A stretch of DNA of 31,904 bases from a virus. Of the stretch, positions 8,856 through 31,904 are shown piece after piece. Position 1 is the first letter of the stretch. Each line of letters begins with the position of its first letter. The notes under the pieces were generated by a model that worked only from the letters and a program-made list of their open reading frames with translations, was not told the DNA's origin and searched no databases. A program made the translations under genes and the position numbers. The DNA lies in the IMG/VR virus record IMGVR_UViG_3300010148_000060, positions 1 through 31,904 of that record. One strand, given 5' to 3'.

Positions 8856-11065
8856 TGTATAAGCAAACTTTATTTAGGGTTATTGATCCAATTAAAATAA
8901 ATACGCTTAAACGTTATAATAAAGCGCGTAGATGGAAATATGGCTACGATAAAGAAAACGACATTGTTGTTATTAGTAAAACAGGGCAGATTGGCGAAGT
9001 GTATAGCATACAGAATTTAAAAATTGCGCTGCCTCCTATGCCTGCAAAAATTACTAAAGACAATAATAAATGGCTTAAGCGCGAATATCCTAAAGAATTA
9101 AACAGGATAAAAACAATCTTTGATTGGAAAAGCTATCCAGAAGAATTTAAGGATCAATGGGAACCATATATAGATGAAGAGTTTAAAAGGCGAGATGAAG
9201 GCCACTGGTTTTATAACAAAAACAATCCTACTTATATTACTGGCACTCATTACATGTACTTGCAGTGGAGTAAAATTGACGTTGGGGCCCCTGAATTTAG
9301 AGAAGCAAACAGATTATTCTTTATATTTTGGGAAGCATGTAAAGCCGATCCACGGTGTTATGGAATGTGCTATCTTAAAAACAGACGCTCTGGCTTTTCA
9401 TTCATGGCATCATCGGAAGCTGTTAACATGGCAACAATATCCTCCGATTCACGATTTGGTATACTGTCCAAGTCTGGGTCTGACGCTAAGAAAATGTTCA
9501 CCGACAAAGTCGTGCCAATATCCGTTAACTATCCATTCTTCTTCAAGCCAATACAAGACGGTATGGATAGACCAAAAACCGAACTGGCTTATAGGGTACC
9601 CGCATCAAAACTCACGCGTAAATCTATACAGTCAGGGCAGACGCGGGAAGAGCTACAGGGGCTCGATACGACAATCGACTGGAAGAACACGGGTGACAAC
9701 TCCTACGACGGTGAGAAGCTTAAACTCCTCGTACATGACGAATCGGGCAAATGGGAACGGCCGGACAACATACTCAACAACTGGCGAGTTACAAAGACGA
9801 CGCTAAGACTAGGTAGCCGGGTTATAGGTAAGTGTATGATGGGGTCTACAAGCAATGCTTTAGACAAAGGCGGAGAAAATTTTAAAAAACTATATTATGA
9901 CTCAGACGTCACCAAACGAAACGCCAATGGACAGACTCGCTCAGGATTATATAGTTTGTTCATACCTATGGAATGGAACTACGAGGGATTCATTGATTCT
10001 TTTGGAAACCCTGTCTTTGATACGCCACAAAAACCGATTAAAGGCCCGTATGGAGACCTTATTGAGGTCGGAGTTATAGATCATTGGAACAATGAAGTTG
10101 ATGGCTTAAAAGGTGACCAGGATGCTTTAAATGAGATGTATAGACAGTTTCCACGCACAGAGGAGCACGCGTTTAGAGATGAAACAAAAAATAGTATATT
10201 TAATTTGGTAAAAATATACGAACAAATAGATTATAACGAAGACTTAGGTTCTTCGGATATAATAACAAGAGGTAATTTTCAATGGTCAAATGGTATAAAA
10301 GATTCTAAGGTAATATTTTTGCCAGATTTAAAGGGAAGATTTTATGTAAGCTGGCTGCCAAAAGTAGAGTTACAAAATAGAATAATAATAAAAAATAGCA
10401 TTAAGTTTCCTGGTAACGAGCATGTAGGTGCCTTTGGGTGTGACTCATATGATATATCAGGAACAACTGATGGGCAGGGCTCTAAGGGGTCTTTGCATGG
10501 GCTCACTAAGTTCAGCATGGAAGACTCGCCTCCACATATGTTTTTTTTAGAATATATAGCCCGGCCTCAAACAGCCGAAATGTTTTTTGAAGACGTATTA
10601 ATGGCGTTACATTTTTATGGTATGCCAATACTTGCTGAAAACAACAAACCTAGATTATTATACTATTTAAAACGAAGGGGCTATAGAAAATTTTCTATTA
10701 ATCGACCCGATAAAATATGGAATAAATTATCTGTAGCAGAAAAAGAAATAGGCGGTATACCTAATTCAAGTGAGGATATAAGACAGGCCCATGCTGCCGC
10801 TATAGAAACATATATACAATCATATGTTGGTTATAATGAAAACGGGGGTGCTAATAATATATATTTTAACAGGACTCTAAATGATTGGGCTAAGTTCGAT
10901 ATAAATAAAAGAACAAAGTTTGATGCTGCGATTAGCTCAGGTTTGGCTATAATGGCGTGTAATAGGCACTTATATTCACCAGTATCGCAAAAAGAAAAGT
11001 CTACTGTAAACATAAATTTTGCAAAATATAAAAATAGCGGTTTAAGATCGCAAATAATACAATAA
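8855..11065 (+). CDS. terL: Terminase large subunit (packaging ATPase and nuclease)
   Basis: This 736-residue protein powers DNA translocation into the capsid and cuts the concatemer. The ATPase domain has a deviant P-loop at 175-182 (KNRRSGFS, with Phe where GK[S/T] normally has Lys), Walker B at 291-296 (LLVHDE, D295 and catalytic E296) and a coupling motif, MGSTSN, near 330. The C-terminal RNase H-like nuclease shows GCDSYD with D530, a central AENNKP segment and FDAAISSGLAI with D690, the usual three acidic sites. Length is somewhat above average, as in crAss-like phages. The central ATPase coding region has clearly higher GC and C/G-ending codons (see findings). It is coupled to the upstream gene by TAATG, and the portal follows two bases after the stop. 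Confidence 0.95.
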   Translation: MYKQTLFRVIDPIKINTLKRYNKARRWKYGYDKENDIVVISKTGQIGEVYSIQNLKIALPPMPAKITKDNNKWLKREYPKELNRIKTIFDWKSYPEEFKDQWEPYIDEEFKRRDEGHWFYNKNNPTYITGTHYMYLQWSKIDVGAPEFREANRLFFIFWEACKADPRCYGMCYLKNRRSGFSFMASSEAVNMATISSDSRFGILSKSGSDAKKMFTDKVVPISVNYPFFFKPIQDGMDRPKTELAYRVPASKLTRKSIQSGQTREELQGLDTTIDWKNTGDNSYDGEKLKLLVHDESGKWERPDNILNNWRVTKTTLRLGSRVIGKCMMGSTSNALDKGGENFKKLYYDSDVTKRNANGQTRSGLYSLFIPMEWNYEGFIDSFGNPVFDTPQKPIKGPYGDLIEVGVIDHWNNEVDGLKGDQDALNEMYRQFPRTEEHAFRDETKNSIFNLVKIYEQIDYNEDLGSSDIITRGNFQWSNGIKDSKVIFLPDLKGRFYVSWLPKVELQNRIIIKNSIKFPGNEHVGAFGCDSYDISGTTDGQGSKGSLHGLTKFSMEDSPPHMFFLEYIARPQTAEMFFEDVLMALHFYGMPILAENNKPRLLYYLKRRGYRKFSINRPDKIWNKLSVAEKEIGGIPNSSEDIRQAHAAAIETYIQSYVGYNENGGANNIYFNRTLNDWAKFDINKRTKFDAAISSGLAIMACNRHLYSPVSQKEKSTVNINFAKYKNSGLRSQIIQ
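9361..9840 (+). other. GC-rich island inside the TerL gene
   Basis: Hand counts give about 40-53% GC per 60 bases over this stretch, peaking at 53% in 9601-9720, against about 25-35% in most of the window. The frame is intact and codes for the P-loop to Walker B region of TerL. Codons switch to ACG, CTC, GAC, AAC, TGG and CGG types that are rare elsewhere here. Moderately raised GC extends on both sides (about 9241-10080). Confidence 0.75.
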
Positions 11066-18660: not shown

Positions 18661-21600
18661 ATGCCAGAAGTTAAAAATACTTTTGTTAAAGGTCTTATGG
18701 ATAAAGATACTGACGAACGATTAGTTCAGTCGGGTACTTATCGTGATGCTTTAAACATAAAAATAGCGAATAGTGAAAATTCAGATGTTGGTGCTATAGA
18801 AAGTGTGCTTGGTAATTTAAGAATTTCTAATATACCGCTTAACGAATATGTTGATGATAGCGGAAATGTTTTATTAGATCCTAACAACTCCACTGTATGT
18901 GTCGGCGCAAAAAGATATGATCTTGAAGACAAAATATATTGGCTTACTACATCTGATGTAAAAGATGGTATTTGGGAATATAACGAAAAAACAGATAGAA
19001 TATCACCTGTAATAGTCGCCAACAAAAAAACTGTTACTGTTACAAGGTTTATGCAAATAAGCAATCAGCAAGGTATAATAGTATTAGAAGATCCCGGTGT
19101 GCCTAGCGGTGTAACAGTTCCTACTGATAACCCTGATCTGCTTAACTTTTTTGCTAATGACGAATGGGCGGATACATTCGGAACAAGGCTTGCAGACGGT
19201 GCTAATAAAATTATAACAGATACAACAAATGATGTAACTATTACAATTAAGGGCCAGTTTAATGAAACTTTGTCTATTCCAATTGGCACAAAAATAGAGA
19301 TTGATCCAAACCCTGCAGATGGCGATGGTGACGGTGTTGACGAAGAACAAATAAAAATATTTTTGCCATATGACCTTGCATTAAACGAAGGTTATTTGGT
19401 AGAGTGCGAAATAAAATACATTACAGGCACAGCTCTAAATTTTAAAAAGAATAGAATAATAACCGGTATAAATATAATTGATGGTTTGTTATTTTTTACT
19501 GATAATCATAATGAGCCGAAAAAAATTAATATTAATACTTTTAAAGATCTTTCCAATAATAACTTTAGCTCTACTACACAAATATTTGGAAATGATATTA
19601 CTGAAGACGACATAACAGTAATTAAAAAATCACCTTTTAGCGCCCCAACATTAAGTTTGTTTGACACAAATAGAGTTAATGAAAATGGAGAATCACTGCC
19701 TGTTAGGTTATATTTAAATCAAGATTTTTCAAATAAAAATATTGGTAGCACAATAACAACTAGCGTAGGTGGCGAGCTTGCTTTAAAAACAAAAGATAGG
19801 CTTAATGTTTTTTCTGAGGATCCGGAAAGTGATATGGAAATCGAAGTCGAAGTTTCTGCAATTAAGTATGTTAAAAGTACAAAAAGAACAGCGATAGATT
19901 TAATTATTTTAACATATTCCTTACCGACTAACCAAGACCAGGGCAACAAATGGATAGGTAGATTAATAGAAGATGACCCTATATATCAATTAACGTTTCC
20001 AAGATTTTCGTACAGATGGAAATACTATGACGGTGAATATTCAGTTATGGCACCGTTTTCTGAAATTGCATTTTTACCCGGTAATTCCGCAAGTACTCAA
20101 TTTAGAGATTTGTCAGATTTTAAATACAATGGTAAAGATGGATTTAACCTAGCTATGACAAATGTAGTTAGGCGTATTGAATTAAATGATATAGAGGTCG
20201 GTGGCGCGGATGTTAAAGAAATAGAAATATTATATAAGACACCTGAAATAAATTCTATATATGTTATAAATAAAATACAACGCCCAGAAGGTGATGGAGC
20301 TAATATAGCCACGGTTGTAGTCGATACAGAGCAAATAGATTCTGTAGTTGAGTCTAATCAGATATTAAGACCATATGATAATGTACCGAGAAAAGCAAAA
20401 GCGCAGGATGTTACTGCTAATAGAATTATATACGGAAACTACTTACAGGGGTATACCGTAGACAAAAAGCCTTCTTTTGATGTTTCATTTGATTATAGAA
20501 ACAACTATAAGTCTATTAAGTCAAATAGAGCATATACATTAGGCGTAGTATATACAGATAAATTCGGCAGACAAACACCGGTTATATCGGATGCATCGGG
20601 AACTTTTAAAATACCAAGAAGCAAGTCAAATGCCGGCACACAAATAGTCACGAAAATTGTTTCTGATCCTCCTTATTGGGCAAAAAGATTTAAGTATTAC
20701 ATTAAAGATACATCGCAAGAATATTATAATATTGCTGTAGATAGAGTTTATGAAAACCCTACCGACTTAGGTTTTGTTTGGCTTTCTATGAGCTCAAATG
20801 ATAGAAGCAAAATAAAAGAAGAAAGCTATCTAATACTTAAAAAAGGGCATAATAAATCTGAGGCTGTTACTTCTAACAATTCAAAATTTAAAGTTTTAGC
20901 AATACAAGCTGACCCGCCTGATTTTATTGCTAAAAAATACGCTACAAAAGATTATTTAGCTAGAGTTGTATTTGATTCTAACTATAATCAAAGACAGACA
21001 CAAGAGACAAAATTATCAGGCAATACTCCGGTCGCTGGATCTGATTCGGTAAATATTTCTAGGTCTAATGATGCTAAAAATGTTCCTCCCGATAGAATAG
21101 TTCATTTAATATCCGGTAATTTTATAAGATTTGAAAGAGATGGCCAATACTCTAACTATTATGAAATAAAAGTTACCGCAAGCAGTGTAAATGGCAAGGA
21201 CTCAGGAGTCGGTTATTCTGTAAAAATAATTACAACAAAACCATTTGGTAATGATGTTGAGTTTTTATATAACGACGCTGGCTCCCAAGCTAGCTATTTT
21301 AGAAATAATACAAGCCAAATAAATATAGAATTATACGACAGACAAAGCACCGCGGGCAATGCTGAATTCGCTGGAAGATTCTTTGTAAAATTACAGAAGA
21401 ATCAACTTATAGAAAAAGAACTAATACAATCCGGGGCAACTGAAGATAATATTAATTATATAACAAAAGGAGCTACTAGGATTGACGGTAAAGTGCGCAG
21501 AAATAGAAATAAATTAGACCCTGGGTATTTTATAGGTGCTGGGGGTAAAGCAGGTTCACCAAGCACTTCAATATCAATAAAAAGAGGAGGTACTTTTGGT

Positions 21601-24600
21601 AAAAATAGGAGTATTAATTGTAAAAGATGCGGTTATAATAAAAATGACGCAAGAGCTGTTTTAGATAAAGCTAGAGCAAACGCTTTTCATTTCCATATTG
21701 CTCCTAACGATACTCGTGCTAATAACACAACTTTTTACAATGGCCTTGTAGAAAACGCCACAATATCTTTTTCAGGGCATTCTAAACCTTATACAGTAAA
21801 AGCTATATATCAGTATACTAATGGAAATAGGTATCAGACTAGCGGAAAAGGGGCAATTGAAAAGTTTATAGTTTTAGATAGAAATTTAGAAAAGAATTTA
21901 CCGTTTAATGGGCAAAGCTTGCCAGATTCTAGAAAACAGCTAATAGAGGTATTGCAAGTTAGTCCTGAAGATACAGAATTTAATACAGAAAATCCAGCAA
22001 TATTTGAGGTTGAACCAATAAGAGGCATTAAAGAATTAGATATATATTATGAAACTGAAGATTCTTACGATATATCTGTGCATGGAAAACAACAAAAATT
22101 AAGATATTTTAATTCATTTGCTTTTGGTAACGGCGTTGAGTCTAACAGAATTAGAGACGATTTTAACGCTTTAACAATGGACAAAGGCGTTAGGGCATCA
22201 GCTACTATACCTCAAGAAATAAAAGCAGAAAGAAAACTGAACGGCCTTATATGGTCTGGTCTTATAAATACTACTGCTAGTGTAAATAATACAAATCAAT
22301 TTATAGCAGGCGAAAGAATAACTAAAGATTTATTACCAGCATACGGAGCAATACAAAAACTTCACGCTAGAGATACGGATCTTATGGTATTTTGTGAAGA
22401 TAAACTTGTTAAAGTATTGTCTGATAAAGATGCTTTATACGACGCCGAAGGCAACTCTTTGGCATTGCAGGCTATTAATTTAGTATTAGGAGCTGTAACA
22501 CCTGTTTCTGGTGAATATGGAATATCTAATAACCCTGAATCATTTGCGTCTTTTGGAAATAGATTTTATTTCGCAGACAGGAATAGAGGCGTTATATTAC
22601 GTCATGGTGGTAACGGCTTAGAAGAAATATCTCGATATGGAATGAATGATTTTTTTAGAGATAAGCTAGCTGATTCAATTATAAATAACGGTTATATCTT
22701 AGGTACTTATGATGACAGAAATAATACTTATAATATAACACTTGAAGGTGTAACTATAGCTTATACAGAAGATACACGCGGATGGACAAGTAGATTATCT
22801 TTTATACCTGAAAATGGTTTTTCTTTAAATAATAAATATTATACATTTAAGCAGGGTCATATTTATAGACATGCTCATCCTAAGGCTATTAAAAATAGGT
22901 TTTATGGCGTACAATATAATTCTAAAGTTAGTTTTATTTCAAATGCTTCACCTTCTGATGTTAAAAACTTTAAAACGTTATCATACGAAGGCACTAAAGA
23001 CTGGAAAGCGACAATGGAAACAGATCTTCAAGAATCTGATGAGTTGTTGTTTGAGAAAAAAGAAGGTAAATATTTTGCTTTTGTAAAAGGTAAAGAAAAA
23101 ACTGCAACTACTGTTGATTTAAAAGATTTTACAGTGCAGGGTATCGGTACAGCTGAAGAAATTGAAGCTGTTGTTGTGGCTACCGAAGTTACACTTACAA
23201 TAAAGCTAGAAGACGGAGTCGGCTATAATGCTGCAGATATAGAAATTACACAGTTTGCAGACACAGAATTACCCGATACTGTAACATTTACAATAGTGCC
23301 AACCGCAGGATATGTAGTGGCAGCCAGAGACTTTTCAGGTGATAATATAACTTTTACAGATAACGGGACAGCTGACACAGCCGACAATACAATATCTGCG
23401 GTATATGATATTAGTGTGTCGAGAATGTATTTAGTTGATACTACAATAGATGTTGAGCTTGATACAGGCTTTGGAAATAGCCAGGAATATACAACTACAG
23501 GTAACTGGAGTTTTGCGCCAACAAATTGTTTTTCTGATATTCCAAACACTGGGCAGTACTCTATAACAGGCGTAGCAGAGTCACTAAGGAACATTAACAT
23601 TAGGACTATAAAAGCGTCAGAAGGATTTGAATTTCAAAGTATAGCCGCGGTGCAGTCTGGCACAAGCAATCCTGACGTAAAAATTTACAGAATATACAAC
23701 GACTCTACCTCAATTACAGTTTTTGAAAGAGTAAGAATACAAACAGGTGGCGGCGCTGAAAGCTATAACTTTTCAGCCACAGCAACACCAGTTACAGTTG
23801 ATACTGAGGTTTTAAACTTTTTTAGTATTAACCAAAGAGATATATTAAAAGTTGGGGACACTAGAGAACTAGTTATATTTGGATCAATTGGTGCAACATA
23901 TCAAATTGTTGTCAATGACGGATCATCCAATATACAAACAGAAACTGGCACATTAAAAGAAGGAATTGAAGAAACAATTGATATTGAATTTCCTGAAAAT
24001 ACAAACCCTGTTGAAAAAACGTATACAATTACATTGACAGGTACAGGCGTAACGTCACTTAGTAACGACCTTACCGGTAATAATGTAATTACTTTAAAGC
24101 AACGCGATTCTGAGGAAACGCTAATAAACTTTAATTTAGAAACAAAATATCCAACAGGTTCTGGCTCGGGTGATGTTACATATGAAAACGGTAAAAAAGT
24201 ACAAAATGTAAAAGTTACTGATTCTTCTGTAACGGGTAGCGTTTCTTGGCAAATATCAGGACAAAGTTGGATGGAGCCTGAAGAATTCTTAGATACAGAT
24301 ATTTCTTTTGCTTCTGACGATGTTGCAATTGGTATCGCTTACTCTAATTTAGTCGCTGCTAAAAATTTAATTGGCGTTGTAGACGGAGCGACAAATAGCT
24401 CTACAGTTGTGCTAACAGATACTGTGCCTGGATTAAAGGAATCTTTTGACGCAGGTGATATTGTAAAAGTTTTAGGTGATGGTATAACCAACAATCCTAC
24501 AACAATAACAGCCATTACCGATTCCGACGATGGCGTTGTTAACGCTAAATTAACATTAAGCCATACTACTAATTTTATAGATGTTGCTGAAATACAATTT

Positions 24601-26781
24601 GTAAGAAACGATGCTTATGTTTCATTCGACTACGAAGTTGTTGAAGCAAACGAAGCCCAGGCAACTGTGAATATAGATTTTGACAACTTCTTTTTTGCAG
24701 GAGTTGATTTATCTTTTGCTTATACAGTTCCTTCTGGCGCGTTTTATACGGCTACCGTTGATTCAACTTTAACATTAACAGGTGGAGATAGCTTAGTTGT
24801 ACCTTCAATACCAATACAAGAGGATAGAGAGATTATATTAGCACCAAATAGCGGCTATGAGTTTATAGAGCCACCGGCTCCGTCTGTATTTACCATTACA
24901 GAAAGCCCAGCAACAACTTGGGGCAGCGAAGTTAAATCTTTAAGCACAAGATTGGACTCTCAAGGTAGAGCTATTATAGTAATTAATTTTGAAGAATTTA
25001 CATTATATCCATCTGCGAACACAACGGTTACATTAACGGCTGCTATAGCGGATTTTAATGCGTCTGTTGTAGTAACTCCTTCAGTACCTACTGTTGCTAC
25101 TACTAGCGTTGCGCAGATTTCAAATGTAGAAGACACTACGCTAGATATTGTTACAAATGTAACAAAAGACTCATCGGGCAGTCCAATACTTAAAAGAGGC
25201 ATCATTATATTGGAAGATTCAACTAACAGTATAAACCCAACTATAACAACAGATGGCATTGAAATAAGAAACCTAACGCAAACTTTAACAGGAAGCGTTA
25301 CTTCAAGGCTGGGGTCGTATATAGCTGATTTAAATAATAATTTTAATTTTGGGTTTGATGGGAATACTGTATATAGAATTAGAGCATATGCAGAAAATGT
25401 TGCAGGGGTAGCTTATGGAACAACACTAAGCATAACTACAGCTCCTACAATGGAAATAACATTAGTCGATGAAGGTGTGTTTAATAGAAAGAGCCAAGCA
25501 CTTGCTAAATTAAAAGCTACATATACAAATCCAAATAATCACACTATAGTAGACAAAGGGTTTATATATATATTTGTTCCGCCATCTGAAGCAGCTAATT
25601 TAACGGCTAATACTTTAACAATATCTGAAGTTGGAGGTGAAGCGTTTGCAGTTGCAGATAATTCTTTTTTAGCTAATAACTCAACATCAGCAAGTTTTGT
25701 AGACGGACCAGGGCTTCAATTTGTAACAGACGTTAGTTTTATTGAAGAAGATGCGCTTGATAACATACTGTATAAAGTTGGCACGTCTAAAGTATCTCGT
25801 ACTCAAAACACGACTAATAAAGTAGCAAATTCTAATCTTCCTATGTTTGCTGTTGGTTATATAAAAACACAAGAATTAGGATATAGCTATAGTGATATAA
25901 AATCAATTTCAAAAATTGCTTCCAATAATGATGTAACGATTAATATTAGTGAACCTCTGCAAGTTATTAATCCTATAGATGACAGTCCAGACGCTTCGTG
26001 TAAATTATATGAAATTACAAATAACGATGCCAAATATGATTTTGATAATGCTGTTGACGACAAAGGGTTTAATAGTCACCACAGGGGTAGTATAAGTGTA
26101 AATTACACAGAGTGCTCAACCGGGAAAAGTCAACCTGTTCAAAAAAGATTAGAGCCTGGCCAAAAAATTAGAGTTTATTCTAATACCACTCCAACATCAA
26201 GCGGACAAACCCAAGCAAATGTGGTTGAAATTACTGATACACGAGTAACAGGTATTGGAACGTTACTTGCAGGAACTACAAATAGAGTTCAAATTGATAT
26301 TACTGTTTCAGATAGTAATTTTGGTTTAGATTTAAAAGAATATGGTATTTTAGCATCAAGCACAAGAACAGGTGCTAGTGGTAATAAAATTACAATTAAT
26401 TCACCTAATACATTAAGAAGTTCCGCAAAATACCCGGTTGCAGAAAAGCTAGCAAATGGCACTTTAAGTTTTTCATATGAAAAATCTATTACAGATAACG
26501 ATTTTGAAATGAGACTAGAACAAGGCAAAACTTTTGTTCTTAGAGGATATGCTATTAATGATTCAGGAGTATATTATAGCGATTTAAAATTAATAGCTAT
26601 GGCTGGTAACGCTGATACTGACTTTGACGGCAAGGTTAACAATGATTCAAATAACTCTTTTAATGATAGAGTCGGTGGTGGGACTGGTAATAATGGCCCT
26701 TCTAAGATTGACATTGATGGAGCTACCGATGATGTTGGTTTTAATGATAGTCCCAATAATCCCGATAATATCTTTTTATAA
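18661..26781 (+). CDS. Giant muzzle/stabilisation tail protein with Bacteroidota-type Ig/FN3 extension
   Basis: This 2706-residue protein begins with the crAss stabilisation/muzzle signature (NTFVKGLMDKDTDERLVQSG, then YRDALNIKIA and ENSDVGAIESVLGN). The conserved body runs to about residue 1480 and includes a calcium-loop-like DGDGDGVDEE at 220-229, a CKRC (987-990) with FHFH (1009-1012) site, an NPESFASFGNRFYFAD propeller-like element near 1290 and FYGVQYNSKV...KNFKTLSYEG at about 1410-1445. After that come many beta domains. Those at about 2100-2255, 2260-2405 and 2480-2650 end in forms like YRIRAYAENVAGVAYG or VLRGYAINDSGVYYS, as in Bacteroidota surface FN3-like modules. A DTDFDGKVNND loop lies at 2652-2662. 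The muzzle closes the short tail; the extension may bind host glycans or proteins. Confidence 0.85.
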   Translation: MPEVKNTFVKGLMDKDTDERLVQSGTYRDALNIKIANSENSDVGAIESVLGNLRISNIPLNEYVDDSGNVLLDPNNSTVCVGAKRYDLEDKIYWLTTSDVKDGIWEYNEKTDRISPVIVANKKTVTVTRFMQISNQQGIIVLEDPGVPSGVTVPTDNPDLLNFFANDEWADTFGTRLADGANKIITDTTNDVTITIKGQFNETLSIPIGTKIEIDPNPADGDGDGVDEEQIKIFLPYDLALNEGYLVECEIKYITGTALNFKKNRIITGINIIDGLLFFTDNHNEPKKININTFKDLSNNNFSSTTQIFGNDITEDDITVIKKSPFSAPTLSLFDTNRVNENGESLPVRLYLNQDFSNKNIGSTITTSVGGELALKTKDRLNVFSEDPESDMEIEVEVSAIKYVKSTKRTAIDLIILTYSLPTNQDQGNKWIGRLIEDDPIYQLTFPRFSYRWKYYDGEYSVMAPFSEIAFLPGNSASTQFRDLSDFKYNGKDGFNLAMTNVVRRIELNDIEVGGADVKEIEILYKTPEINSIYVINKIQRPEGDGANIATVVVDTEQIDSVVESNQILRPYDNVPRKAKAQDVTANRIIYGNYLQGYTVDKKPSFDVSFDYRNNYKSIKSNRAYTLGVVYTDKFGRQTPVISDASGTFKIPRSKSNAGTQIVTKIVSDPPYWAKRFKYYIKDTSQEYYNIAVDRVYENPTDLGFVWLSMSSNDRSKIKEESYLILKKGHNKSEAVTSNNSKFKVLAIQADPPDFIAKKYATKDYLARVVFDSNYNQRQTQETKLSGNTPVAGSDSVNISRSNDAKNVPPDRIVHLISGNFIRFERDGQYSNYYEIKVTASSVNGKDSGVGYSVKIITTKPFGNDVEFLYNDAGSQASYFRNNTSQINIELYDRQSTAGNAEFAGRFFVKLQKNQLIEKELIQSGATEDNINYITKGATRIDGKVRRNRNKLDPGYFIGAGGKAGSPSTSISIKRGGTFGKNRSINCKRCGYNKNDARAVLDKARANAFHFHIAPNDTRANNTTFYNGLVENATISFSGHSKPYTVKAIYQYTNGNRYQTSGKGAIEKFIVLDRNLEKNLPFNGQSLPDSRKQLIEVLQVSPEDTEFNTENPAIFEVEPIRGIKELDIYYETEDSYDISVHGKQQKLRYFNSFAFGNGVESNRIRDDFNALTMDKGVRASATIPQEIKAERKLNGLIWSGLINTTASVNNTNQFIAGERITKDLLPAYGAIQKLHARDTDLMVFCEDKLVKVLSDKDALYDAEGNSLALQAINLVLGAVTPVSGEYGISNNPESFASFGNRFYFADRNRGVILRHGGNGLEEISRYGMNDFFRDKLADSIINNGYILGTYDDRNNTYNITLEGVTIAYTEDTRGWTSRLSFIPENGFSLNNKYYTFKQGHIYRHAHPKAIKNRFYGVQYNSKVSFISNASPSDVKNFKTLSYEGTKDWKATMETDLQESDELLFEKKEGKYFAFVKGKEKTATTVDLKDFTVQGIGTAEEIEAVVVATEVTLTIKLEDGVGYNAADIEITQFADTELPDTVTFTIVPTAGYVVAARDFSGDNITFTDNGTADTADNTISAVYDISVSRMYLVDTTIDVELDTGFGNSQEYTTTGNWSFAPTNCFSDIPNTGQYSITGVAESLRNINIRTIKASEGFEFQSIAAVQSGTSNPDVKIYRIYNDSTSITVFERVRIQTGGGAESYNFSATATPVTVDTEVLNFFSINQRDILKVGDTRELVIFGSIGATYQIVVNDGSSNIQTETGTLKEGIEETIDIEFPENTNPVEKTYTITLTGTGVTSLSNDLTGNNVITLKQRDSEETLINFNLETKYPTGSGSGDVTYENGKKVQNVKVTDSSVTGSVSWQISGQSWMEPEEFLDTDISFASDDVAIGIAYSNLVAAKNLIGVVDGATNSSTVVLTDTVPGLKESFDAGDIVKVLGDGITNNPTTITAITDSDDGVVNAKLTLSHTTNFIDVAEIQFVRNDAYVSFDYEVVEANEAQATVNIDFDNFFFAGVDLSFAYTVPSGAFYTATVDSTLTLTGGDSLVVPSIPIQEDREIILAPNSGYEFIEPPAPSVFTITESPATTWGSEVKSLSTRLDSQGRAIIVINFEEFTLYPSANTTVTLTAAIADFNASVVVTPSVPTVATTSVAQISNVEDTTLDIVTNVTKDSSGSPILKRGIIILEDSTNSINPTITTDGIEIRNLTQTLTGSVTSRLGSYIADLNNNFNFGFDGNTVYRIRAYAENVAGVAYGTTLSITTAPTMEITLVDEGVFNRKSQALAKLKATYTNPNNHTIVDKGFIYIFVPPSEAANLTANTLTISEVGGEAFAVADNSFLANNSTSASFVDGPGLQFVTDVSFIEEDALDNILYKVGTSKVSRTQNTTNKVANSNLPMFAVGYIKTQELGYSYSDIKSISKIASNNDVTINISEPLQVINPIDDSPDASCKLYEITNNDAKYDFDNAVDDKGFNSHHRGSISVNYTECSTGKSQPVQKRLEPGQKIRVYSNTTPTSSGQTQANVVEITDTRVTGIGTLLAGTTNRVQIDITVSDSNFGLDLKEYGILASSTRTGASGNKITINSPNTLRSSAKYPVAEKLANGTLSFSYEKSITDNDFEMRLEQGKTFVLRGYAINDSGVYYSDLKLIAMAGNADTDFDGKVNNDSNNSFNDRVGGGTGNNGPSKIDIDGATDDVGFNDSPNNPDNIFL

Positions 26782-26790
26782 AAAATTATA

Positions 26791-27120
26791 ATGGCAGCTG
26801 TAAATTTAGCAATAACATTTGAAAAACCCGTAAATGCATCACTGCAAGTTGGAGACTTAGTTTTGCAAAAGCTTAATGAAGACATTATAGAAGTTGGTTC
26901 ATGCACAGCTCTATCTACAGATAGAAAAATTGTAACTGTACTAATACAAGCGCAAACCCCACGACCCGAAACATCTACATATTTATTATTTGCAAAAAAT
27001 AATAAGATTAATACTTCAGGCCTTGCGGGATATTATAGCGAAATAACAATGACAAATGATCGCACGGATGATATAGAGCTATATGCTGTAAATGCTAATG
27101 TATTTAAAAGCAGCAGCTAA
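26791..27120 (+). CDS. Conserved short protein after the muzzle gene, function unknown
   Basis: This 109-residue, mainly beta protein has the pattern FEKPVNASLQVGDLVLQKL, then IEVGSCTAL, LLFAKNNKINTSGLAGYYSE and a tail IELYAVNANVFKSSS. This order (N-x-S-L-Q-V-G-D, F-x-K-x-N-x-x-N-x-S-G-L-x-G-Y-Y, E-L-Y/F-A-V, S-S-S/K) is one I recall from other marine phage virion regions. It sits nine bases after the muzzle gene. A small tail component is likely, and the exact role is unknown. Composition is normal for the region. Confidence 0.7.
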   Translation: MAAVNLAITFEKPVNASLQVGDLVLQKLNEDIIEVGSCTALSTDRKIVTVLIQAQTPRPETSTYLLFAKNNKINTSGLAGYYSEITMTNDRTDDIELYAVNANVFKSSS

Positions 27121-29207: not shown

Positions 29208-31904
29208 ATGTTTGAATTAAACGGTAAGCAGTATAGTTTAGCGCAAGTTGAAGCAGCTGCGGCAAAATCAAATAAAACACTGGATGATTATATCCAAGGA
29301 ACTGGTTTAATTACTATTGAGCCGGGAAAGACAACTCCCACGAGTCAGGGTGCGCTTGTGGAGGAAACTGTAGCGCCCGAACCCGTGAGTACGGAATCAG
29401 AATCGGACGCTGGTTTTTTGGAGCGACAATTTAATGCAACAATACAGGGTTGGAAAAGCGGTAGGCTTAGAGCTGATGCTACTGATGAAATACTATCTGT
29501 AGCATATAATCTTGGTGAATCTACTGACGAAGACTATGATGAATTTGTAACGGCTGTAAATAAATATCAAACCGCCGAAGGTATTGAATCTTTTGAGCAA
29601 TGGGATGCAGCTTATGATAAACATAAAGCAGAAGGCAATAATGCTATAATGTCCACTATACTTGCTACAAAAGATGCTGGAATATCTGGTTTTACAGGAA
29701 TTATAGTGCAATCACTAGCTGGATTAACTAGCAAAGAATCTATGGCCACTGCTGGTGTAACAGGCGCAGCCGGCGCTGGTACAGGTGCAGCTGCCGGTTT
29801 GGCTGGTGGTATATTTGCCCCCGTTACAGTTACAGCTGGTGCTATTACTGGCGGTATTGGCGGCGGAATGGCTGGCGCAAATGCAATGTCAGAAAGTATG
29901 ATAACGTTCGCTTCAGGTATACAAGATGAGCTCGCTAAAAGAAATATGGAGTTTACCAGCGACAATGTAAAAAAATTAATGCAGGACACCGAAGCTGTTA
30001 CTAAAATACGAAACACCTCATTAAAAAGGGGTGTAACTATAGGTATGGTAGAAGGTGTATTTACAGCATTAGGAGGTAAAGCTTTTTCAAGTACAGCAAG
30101 AGCCGTGAAGACAGCTACAGGATCTAGAAAAATAAGCAGATTAGCAGGGGCTGGTGCCGCAGGAACTACAGAAGCGGTAGGGGGCTCATTAGGTGAAACA
30201 GCAGGTTTATTAATTGAAGGTAAGCCGCTAGACCCTAAAGAAATTATAGTGGAAGGTATTGCCGGTATTGGAGGTGCGCCAGCAGCCATGGTAACTAAAG
30301 CACCAGGATTACTTAAGCAAAATAAATACACTATAAATGGTGATAAAGTAAATTTTTCACAGGCTAAAGAAATTATTGATACAGCTACTGCAGATGAGTT
30401 AGCTGGTATGAAAATACAAATTCAAAACGATTCTGAATTTAAAAGCTATGCCGAAACAAGACAACAAGACGAAATACTTAAAACTCAAATAGATACCAGA
30501 ATAACTGAAGATCAAGATAGAGCAGATGTTTTCGAACTTGAAAAAGAATTGTTGCAATTTCAAAACAAAAATAGCGAAAGTGCTAAGCTAAGAGTTAAAG
30601 AAATAAAACAGGAAATAGCCGATATATCTGCTAAATATAAAAGAGTTGGTAGAAGAACCGCAGAATCAAAAGATTTAGAAACACAAAAGCTTAGTATACA
30701 GGATAAAGTTGTACAAAGAGTAAAAGAGCAATTACTTGACCCTGGAAATAAAATTGGTAAAACAGTTGCGTTTGCTCAAACAGCAGGAAAACAATTAGGA
30801 CTTCAAGACCCAACCATAGCTGATAACACAAAGCAATTTTTAGCTGCATTAAAAAAAGATAATGTAGCGCTTGACGAAAGCTCTTTATCTAAAGTACAAG
30901 CTGGATTAGTTGGAGGGGCTGCTTTTAATGGTAAAATATATATTAATAAAGAAGTAGCAGCTAAAACAAAACAAATCAATGTAGGAGCTCATGAAGTACT
31001 ACACCCTATAGTAAATGCTAGAATTCAAAACCAACCCGAGTTTGTTGAACAGTTTAAACAAACGCTAACAAAAAATCAGCTTAACGCAATGGAAGATTTG
31101 CTTACTAGGAGACAATATACCGGTGAGCAAAGAGCTAGAGAGTACTTTACCGTATTTAGTGACGGTATTAGAAATAAAGACATTAAGCTAAATGATAGTA
31201 TATTACAAAAAATTGGTAATGTAATACTAAATATATTAAGACCTCTCGGCTACACAAATGCAAGTTTTAAAGATGCTAAGGGGGTATTTAACTTTATGCG
31301 TGAGTATAATCGTAGCATCGAAAAAGGCAAACTTACTAAAGGGGCTTTAAAAGCTATTGGTGATACAACAGATTTAACCGGTGGACAGCTAGACTTTAGT
31401 ACTGCTGATCAAAGTTTTGTACAAGAACTTGGAGCTAACCAAAGCAAACAGCAATGGGACACTAGAGGTTCGCAAGAGGCTATTGAAAAAATGTATACTG
31501 CCGGTACGTTTGAAAAACTTATAGGTAGTAAAATTACTTCACAAATGAGGCAGCTTCCGGATTTTAATCAGGAAGATTTTATTATGGACACTATAGGTGA
31601 ACTTATACCTCACATCCGTAATTTTAACCCCGAGGTTAACGATAACCTTTCTGGGTGGATTAACTCGCAATTGCAAAATAAAGTAAACTCTGTACTTAAA
31701 AAAGGCCAGGTAACACAAGAGCAATTTACAACAGATATTTCTGAAATTGCAGAACGTACTGAATTTGCGAGCAGCGAGATAGAAGATATGTCTGAAATTA
31801 TAGCCGCTGAAAACGAGCGTTTAGAGAGCCTAATAAATCCATTAGATATATTACCTAATAAACTTAAAACGGAGTACATAGACGCGGTAAAAGAGGCCTT
31901 AAAA
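29208..31904 (+). CDS. Very large internal virion protein with HExxH motif (partial, runs off the window)
   Basis: The ATG at 29208 follows the usual TAATT leader and opens a frame that continues to the window edge, 899 codons without a stop. Residues 1-20 (FELNGKQYSLAQVEAAAAKS) are followed by a Pro/Glu/Ser/Thr-rich linker. Residues 181-235 form a glycine/alanine-rich hydrophobic stretch (GVTGAAGAGTGAAAGLAGG and GAITGGIGGGMAGANAM) with GxxxG patterns suited to membrane insertion; a similar weaker stretch lies near 280-350. Residues 400-500 are charged coiled coil. HEVLH at 595-599 is an HExxH zinc-peptidase signature. Position at the end of the tail module suggests an ejected protein that crosses or opens the cell envelope. 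No polymerase motif is seen. Family is unknown. Confidence 0.75.
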   Translation, partial: MFELNGKQYSLAQVEAAAAKSNKTLDDYIQGTGLITIEPGKTTPTSQGALVEETVAPEPVSTESESDAGFLERQFNATIQGWKSGRLRADATDEILSVAYNLGESTDEDYDEFVTAVNKYQTAEGIESFEQWDAAYDKHKAEGNNAIMSTILATKDAGISGFTGIIVQSLAGLTSKESMATAGVTGAAGAGTGAAAGLAGGIFAPVTVTAGAITGGIGGGMAGANAMSESMITFASGIQDELAKRNMEFTSDNVKKLMQDTEAVTKIRNTSLKRGVTIGMVEGVFTALGGKAFSSTARAVKTATGSRKISRLAGAGAAGTTEAVGGSLGETAGLLIEGKPLDPKEIIVEGIAGIGGAPAAMVTKAPGLLKQNKYTINGDKVNFSQAKEIIDTATADELAGMKIQIQNDSEFKSYAETRQQDEILKTQIDTRITEDQDRADVFELEKELLQFQNKNSESAKLRVKEIKQEIADISAKYKRVGRRTAESKDLETQKLSIQDKVVQRVKEQLLDPGNKIGKTVAFAQTAGKQLGLQDPTIADNTKQFLAALKKDNVALDESSLSKVQAGLVGGAAFNGKIYINKEVAAKTKQINVGAHEVLHPIVNARIQNQPEFVEQFKQTLTKNQLNAMEDLLTRRQYTGEQRAREYFTVFSDGIRNKDIKLNDSILQKIGNVILNILRPLGYTNASFKDAKGVFNFMREYNRSIEKGKLTKGALKAIGDTTDLTGGQLDFSTADQSFVQELGANQSKQQWDTRGSQEAIEKMYTAGTFEKLIGSKITSQMRQLPDFNQEDFIMDTIGELIPHIRNFNPEVNDNLSGWINSQLQNKVNSVLKKGQVTQEQFTTDISEIAERTEFASSEIEDMSEIIAAENERLESLINPLDILPNKLKTEYIDAVKEALK

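Follow-up and report, generated by a model that had tools for sequence, protein, structure and literature searches.

The 31,904-nt stretch of viral DNA analysed here, referred to as the window, carries a block of virion genes that runs, 5′ to 3′, from a portal region through a capsid protein, ring-type proteins and the muzzle to ejection-type proteins. This gene order is the same as in phi38:1 and Calle_1, and the adjoining genes matched PHROG virion structural families. Within the block, positions 18661-26781 form a single open reading frame (ORF) encoding a crAss muzzle protein of 2706 aa. This ORF contains PF25729 (crAss_MUZ_C; aa 1411-1476, E 5e-13 in Pfam) and phrog_14478, whose match reaches aa 1517 (E 9e-126 in PHROGs), and its position after the ring and portal/capsid genes matches that of crAss-like muzzles. 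The C-terminal segment (CTS) is absent from the polypeptide and displaced to ORF 26791-27120. One IMG/VR contig, L002, has the entire window arrangement at 66% identity. Further downstream, an unfinished ORF (29208-31904) contains an HExxH motif (AHEVLH at 30987-31004; no Pfam match), which may point to an ejected cargo protein with a zinc-peptidase part. The features of the muzzle region are as follows.

18661-23184, plus strand: muzzle body, aa 1-1508 (PF25729, phrog_14478; homologous to propeller, IG and crass regions)
23185-24195, plus strand: M1, proximal insert module, aa 1509-1845 (iterated HMM, AlphaFold model, comparison with L002)
24196-25065, plus strand: insert middle, aa 1846-2135 (aligns fully only with L002; low-confidence model)
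25066-25449, plus strand: Bacteroidota-type FN3 module, aa 2136-2263, ending in RIRAYAENVAGVAYGTTLSITT (HMM of 112 modules)
25450-26778, plus strand: insert distal part, aa 2264-2706 (fastest-evolving; two weak FN3-like strands at aa 2397 and 2627)
26779-26793, plus strand: junction of TAA, 9 nt and an in-frame ATG (sequence)
26791-27120, plus strand: CTS gene, 109 aa (phrog_18548, alignment with isolate muzzles, CTS HMM)

The conserved muzzle body, whose C-terminal core spans aa 1145-1508, stops at approximately aa 1508-1517 (PF25729, phrog_14478), and ~1,200 more residues follow in the same ORF. A preliminary description had placed the end of the body near residue 1480 and read the remainder as an extension; the additional residues are there, but they are not terminal. 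The terminal ~105 residues of the muzzle itself are missing from the 2706-aa ORF and are found in the next gene. This small ORF matched positions 145-239 of the 241 in phrog_18548 (E 2e-8), the first part of which matches the muzzle core; both PHROGs 18548 and 38031 cover muzzle residues ~1365-1518 and match ORF 26791-27120 with their final ~60-95 positions. The window CTS also aligned with the final ~100 aa of the muzzles from phi38:1, elemoC and Gundel_1, where such a segment ends the muzzle inside the same protein. Its match to the CTS HMM (E 1e-35) includes the window CTS among the training sequences. Because the isolate muzzles and both PHROGs place this homology at the muzzle end, sequence comparison indicates that the ~1,200 residues after the body are an insert between core and CTS, and that the muzzle is split, with the CTS turned into a gene of its own. 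The feature noticed earlier at 23100-26781 is thus real and its nature was partly guessed correctly, although the split muzzle with its cassette site lies partly outside that interval.

A model of one contiguous relative, built from an alignment of contiguous relatives and core-only rows, has the core end folded together with the CTS (pLDDT ~85-90), and the break falls between two predicted strands. The dN/dS of the CTS was ~0.06. Since the ORF runs on beyond muzzle homology, a plain C-terminal extension followed by an unrelated small gene could be imagined. This reading was rejected, being refuted by the CTS homology of ORF 26791-27120 (PHROGs, isolate muzzles and CTS HMM): independent PHROG profiles identify the small gene with the C-terminal end of the muzzle family, and the split pattern recurs in 92 loci. 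We regard it as barely credible.

Translation across the junction also had to be considered. The window TAA and the CTS ATG share a frame and lie only 9 nt apart, as would suit read-through or recoding of the stop to give one 2818-aa protein, with the CTS as its true C-terminus and the insert as a large internal loop. In L002, the closest relative, however, the CTS ATG overlaps the preceding stop in a different frame (ATGA), and 53 loci have an entire separate gene in between. TAA moreover terminates nearly all window genes, including the capsid genes, and so is not recoded, and we consider a read-through product very unlikely. We propose instead that the CTS is translated separately, by termination and re-initiation 9 nt further on, and that it would dock non-covalently onto the muzzle, completing the beta domain in trans.

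We applied HMMs of the core and CTS to 88, and later 142, related loci. Among the 142, which are the 80 top-scoring loci of two scans and so do not give a population frequency, 92 were split at the same break, the CTS forming a separate gene with an ATG start, 31 were contiguous, and 19 were not classed. The isolates phi38:1, Calle_1, Gundel_1 and elemoC all belonged to the contiguous group. Length and C-terminus therefore vary within the family: the full-length window protein is not common to all relatives, and their inserts differ. Each CTS-bearing locus had one CTS, in the muzzle ORF or in a separate gene but never in both, apart from L073 and L086, where hits were fragmented or doubled within one ORF. 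The CTS gene of split loci starts with an ATG at the segment's first strand, M(A/P)xITLTFxxPLNVSxQVGD, and in 90 of the 92 this start lies between -20 and +30 nt from the preceding stop (median 9 nt). The insert was only fused to the muzzle in 28 split loci, only separate in 53, and present in both forms in 11 (fused in 39 overall).

Several loci showed individual arrangements. L086 (6287-11806) carries one and a half tandem CTS copies in a single ORF, which might represent an intermediate in which the C-terminus was duplicated before the split. L078 carries the main break and a second one (10636-10640) ~140 residues upstream, the latter shared with phi18:3 (L007, 10849-11574). The muzzle of Maribacter phage Panino (L005, 8253-8364) is broken at a third place into 946 + 320 aa, ~110 nt apart; this break may be genuine or may result from a sequencing error. 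The muzzle-type ORF of L137 (1203-13373; 4057 residues) runs on for ~1,400 residues as a tail, and the remainder of the contig showed no CTS. In six loci with a separate insert (L014, L027, L031, L033, L048 and L082), the core ORF has a conserved C-terminus, '..TLTIxENND', before its TAA, and the insert gene mostly starts with an ATG 1 nt past this stop. Frameshifting at this core end ('..TLTIxENND*') was considered and set aside, as we found no proof of it and a stop with a start 1 nt further on fits coupled translation.

On a core tree, the contiguous and split labels changed at least five times, with three changes forced by well-supported branches, and contiguous, fused and separate labels needed 14 changes; both counts are approximate, as the tree was a quick one with some long branches. 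The contiguous junctions of L013 and L015 have a Met (SPTMQLLFNNEINVS) at the position of the CTS start codon of split relatives, possibly a relic of re-fusion once the insert was lost. The fixed insertion point and the repeated gain and loss could also be expected if a mobile element (an intron, intein or homing-type insertion) had split the gene with adhesin domains as hitch-hikers, and crAss001 gp37 and gp41 are indeed annotated as group I intron endonucleases. Against this, no Rfam intron family was detected in six loci tested and no nuclease family in 73 inserts, and the insert keeps the reading frame and evolves under purifying selection. Such an origin appears highly improbable.

We then looked at the composition of the insert. 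Its first ~330-337 residues, M1, consist of Ig/FN3-like beta sandwiches that form a conserved base. M1 is fused to the body in the window and opens the separate insert gene in many relatives; an iterated HMM detected it between core and CTS in 55 of the 92 split loci, in 0 of the 31 contiguous loci, and never elsewhere. The preliminary description had the ORF continuing as beta domains, and the AlphaFold model agrees for the first ~310 insert residues, which were confident beta sandwiches (pLDDT ~80-90), but not for most of the remainder (pLDDT <50). Two further relatives (L009 and L017) matched part of the insert middle, around insert profile positions 507-625, and the whole distal insert was common only to the window and L002.

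The FN3 module at aa 2136-2263 matched a whole-domain HMM with E 4e-12. This HMM was built from 112 modules, mostly from Bacteroidota genomes, and the source genome hits had been picked by their terminal motif; we therefore ran a control without the motif columns, which gave E 6e-7, compared with 0.58 for the best of 200 shuffles. By hand count, roughly 64 of the 80 genome matches listed for the terminal motif, AYAxNxxGxxYG, have Bacteroidota titles. At least three FN3-like strands had been proposed, and three or more copies were not found in the insert: there is one full module, and the strands at aa 2397 and 2627 are weak (E 0.03 for the better one).

Beyond ~aa 1508, searches of Pfam, PHROGs and NCBIfam gave no match to the window insert, nor did a search of 50,697 phage records with a threshold as loose as E 10, and no PDB sequence matched convincingly. 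A structure search with the insert model returned only generic Ig/FN3 sandwiches with weak scores. The inserts of relatives likewise gave no meaningful match to PHROGs, and Pfam families in 73 of them included Big_9 (12), Cadherin_3 (7), Cadherin_5 (7), Cadherin_4 (4), TSP3_bac and fn3. Together with the window FN3 module, these domains at the same site bear out the earlier idea of host-type surface modules, and they are not limited to phage families. The motif 'GCTDPxAxNYDPxAxxDDGSC' occurs in the inserts of nine loci (L041, L045, L052, L061, L063, L072 and L078-L080); such motifs are common in Bacteroidota surface proteins.

Two other readings of the insert were discarded. No BACON family was found by Pfam in the window insert or among the families listed for the 73 inserts, and a BACON reading was dropped for want of a profile match. 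A diversity-generating retroelement was rejected because the 31.9-kb window holds no direct repeat of ≥40 nt involving the insert, and thus no template repeat matching its end.

Comparison with L002 revealed a gradient of divergence along the protein. Amino acid identity was 88% in the core, 85% in M1, 70% at aa 1846-2280, and 49% at the far end of the insert (aa 2281-2706; about 48% over aa 2264-2706), and returned to 89% (97/109) in the CTS. As synonymous sites were near saturation, dN is the safer figure; it was 0.077 for the core, 0.096 for M1, 0.18-0.23 for aa 1846-2280, 0.51 for the distal end, and 0.074 for the CTS. Purifying selection acts on all parts: core, insert and CTS. Close cores can also carry unrelated insert ends, as in L113/L114 versus L129 and L014 versus L048; the comparison of L113 with L129 gave 0.87 for the core, 0.73 for the CTS, and 0.04 for the insert end. 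A receptor-binding arm should have a conserved base and a variable, exchangeable end, and this is what was found; the fastest evolution of the distal end agrees with the expectation for a binding arm and counts as support for it. Read from sequence divergence, the pattern is that of a constant base whose tip can be exchanged. The same break with differing adhesion cargo in most sampled environmental relatives suggests an exchangeable host-binding arm.

From these results, we consider it fairly probable that a recurrent insertion hotspot mounts exchangeable host-binding arms on the muzzle, with the CTS completing the muzzle in trans. An adhesion-type beta-domain cassette would enter the muzzle gene at a single constant site, which encodes a loop joining two beta strands of the C-terminal domain. 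Fused to the body, the window cassette would be displayed as an arm of ~1,200 residues on each muzzle subunit, giving six arms per tail if the muzzle is hexameric as in crAss001. M1 would form the base, followed by the middle part, the FN3 module and the fast-evolving end, which probably touches the surface of a Bacteroidota host, because cultured relatives infect Flavobacteriaceae. In the 53 loci with separate-gene inserts only, the insert products would putatively attach to the muzzle.

The place of the arm on the particle may differ from the tail-tip position first suggested for it. Bayfield et al. 2023 (PMC10172136), describing crAss001, put the crass domain at the tip and trace differences in muzzle length to insertions within the crass region and IG2. 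The window insertion point instead follows the propeller repeats and falls within the C-terminal domain, outside the tip-forming crass domain, and therefore may be nearer the barrel than the tip. This location (PMC10172136), the strong conservation of M1, and the frequent use of Ig/FN3 sandwiches as structural spacers would also be compatible with a non-binding role, in assembly, in the collar or in anchoring another fibre, the CTS gene then encoding an accessory ring subunit. We think this rather unlikely: the far end evolves fastest and is swapped wholesale among close relatives, like receptor-binding arms, and contiguous relatives have no insert at the site, indicating that it is dispensable for assembly. 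Extending the host-binding-arm model, there is about an even chance that the muzzle of many environmental crAss-like phages is a natural multi-part protein whose body and terminal chains reassemble, leaving a gap that serves as a dedicated docking port for interchangeable adhesins, fused or separate.

The muzzle of crAss001, gp44 (7QOL, 7QOK), is homologous in its body (HMM E 1e-16 over gp44 1049-1297), and a core + CTS model of the homologous L039 protein matched the fold of these structures with E 2e-8 in Foldseek, although the model is poor in its first half and the search gives no aligned residues. gp44 is one chain of 1371 aa, whereas the window muzzle is split in two genes. Insertion-driven length variation was already known for this family, but the window insertion interrupts the C-terminal domain and leaves the terminus to a gene of its own. 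A profile comparison of the full CTS with the C-termini of gut crAss001 and cr118_1 was not significant, the resemblance being confined to the last hairpin as judged by eye.

The muzzle of the cultured Cellulophaga phage phi18:3 (Baltivirus; relatives phi13:2, phi19:3 and phi46:3) also consists of two genes. Its gp114 ends in Big_9/cadherin-like domains and gp115 comprises MUZ_C and the CTS; notes in the phi18:3 record cite virion MS/MS for both. The phi18:3 break is ~140 residues upstream of the window-type break and its insert is different; it therefore supports the principle of the split, not an identical junction. In the phage collection, the L048 insert matched only the phi18:3 group, over a Big_9-like stretch.

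The BACON-repeat tail protein of p-crAssphage similarly has fast-evolving Bacteroidota-type surface modules (PMC6949934, PMC10136315). The parallel drawn with it in the preliminary description does not hold in detail, as the window insert has no BACON domain and the p-crAssphage protein is described as a separate one, tail-proximal or a tail-spike (PMC10136315). Ig-like adhesins of gut phages (BACON, PKD, Big2) also have exchangeable domains, which alter surface binding, and they bind epithelium (PMC13370021), but they have not been described as split-muzzle inserts. Bacteroidota surface proteins have FN3 repeats ending in (Y)xVRAYAxNxxGxxYG, whose HMM matches window aa 2136-2263; the window module differs as a single divergent copy with an extra loop, within a phage structural protein. 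We found no report of a split muzzle with a cassette site in the open-access literature, as distinct from subscription journals.

The annotation of the small gene after the muzzle can be corrected to the muzzle end, so it is likely an essential structural gene. To our knowledge, few receptor-binding proteins have been identified in crAss-like phages from outside the gut. If the proposed arrangement is true, such proteins could be recognised in a genome by lying between muzzle core and CTS, and differences in host range could be traced to a swappable cassette. The muzzle would gain a built-in attachment point for foreign domains, and a natural split of the tail gate protein would bear on a possible coupling of adsorption to gate opening.
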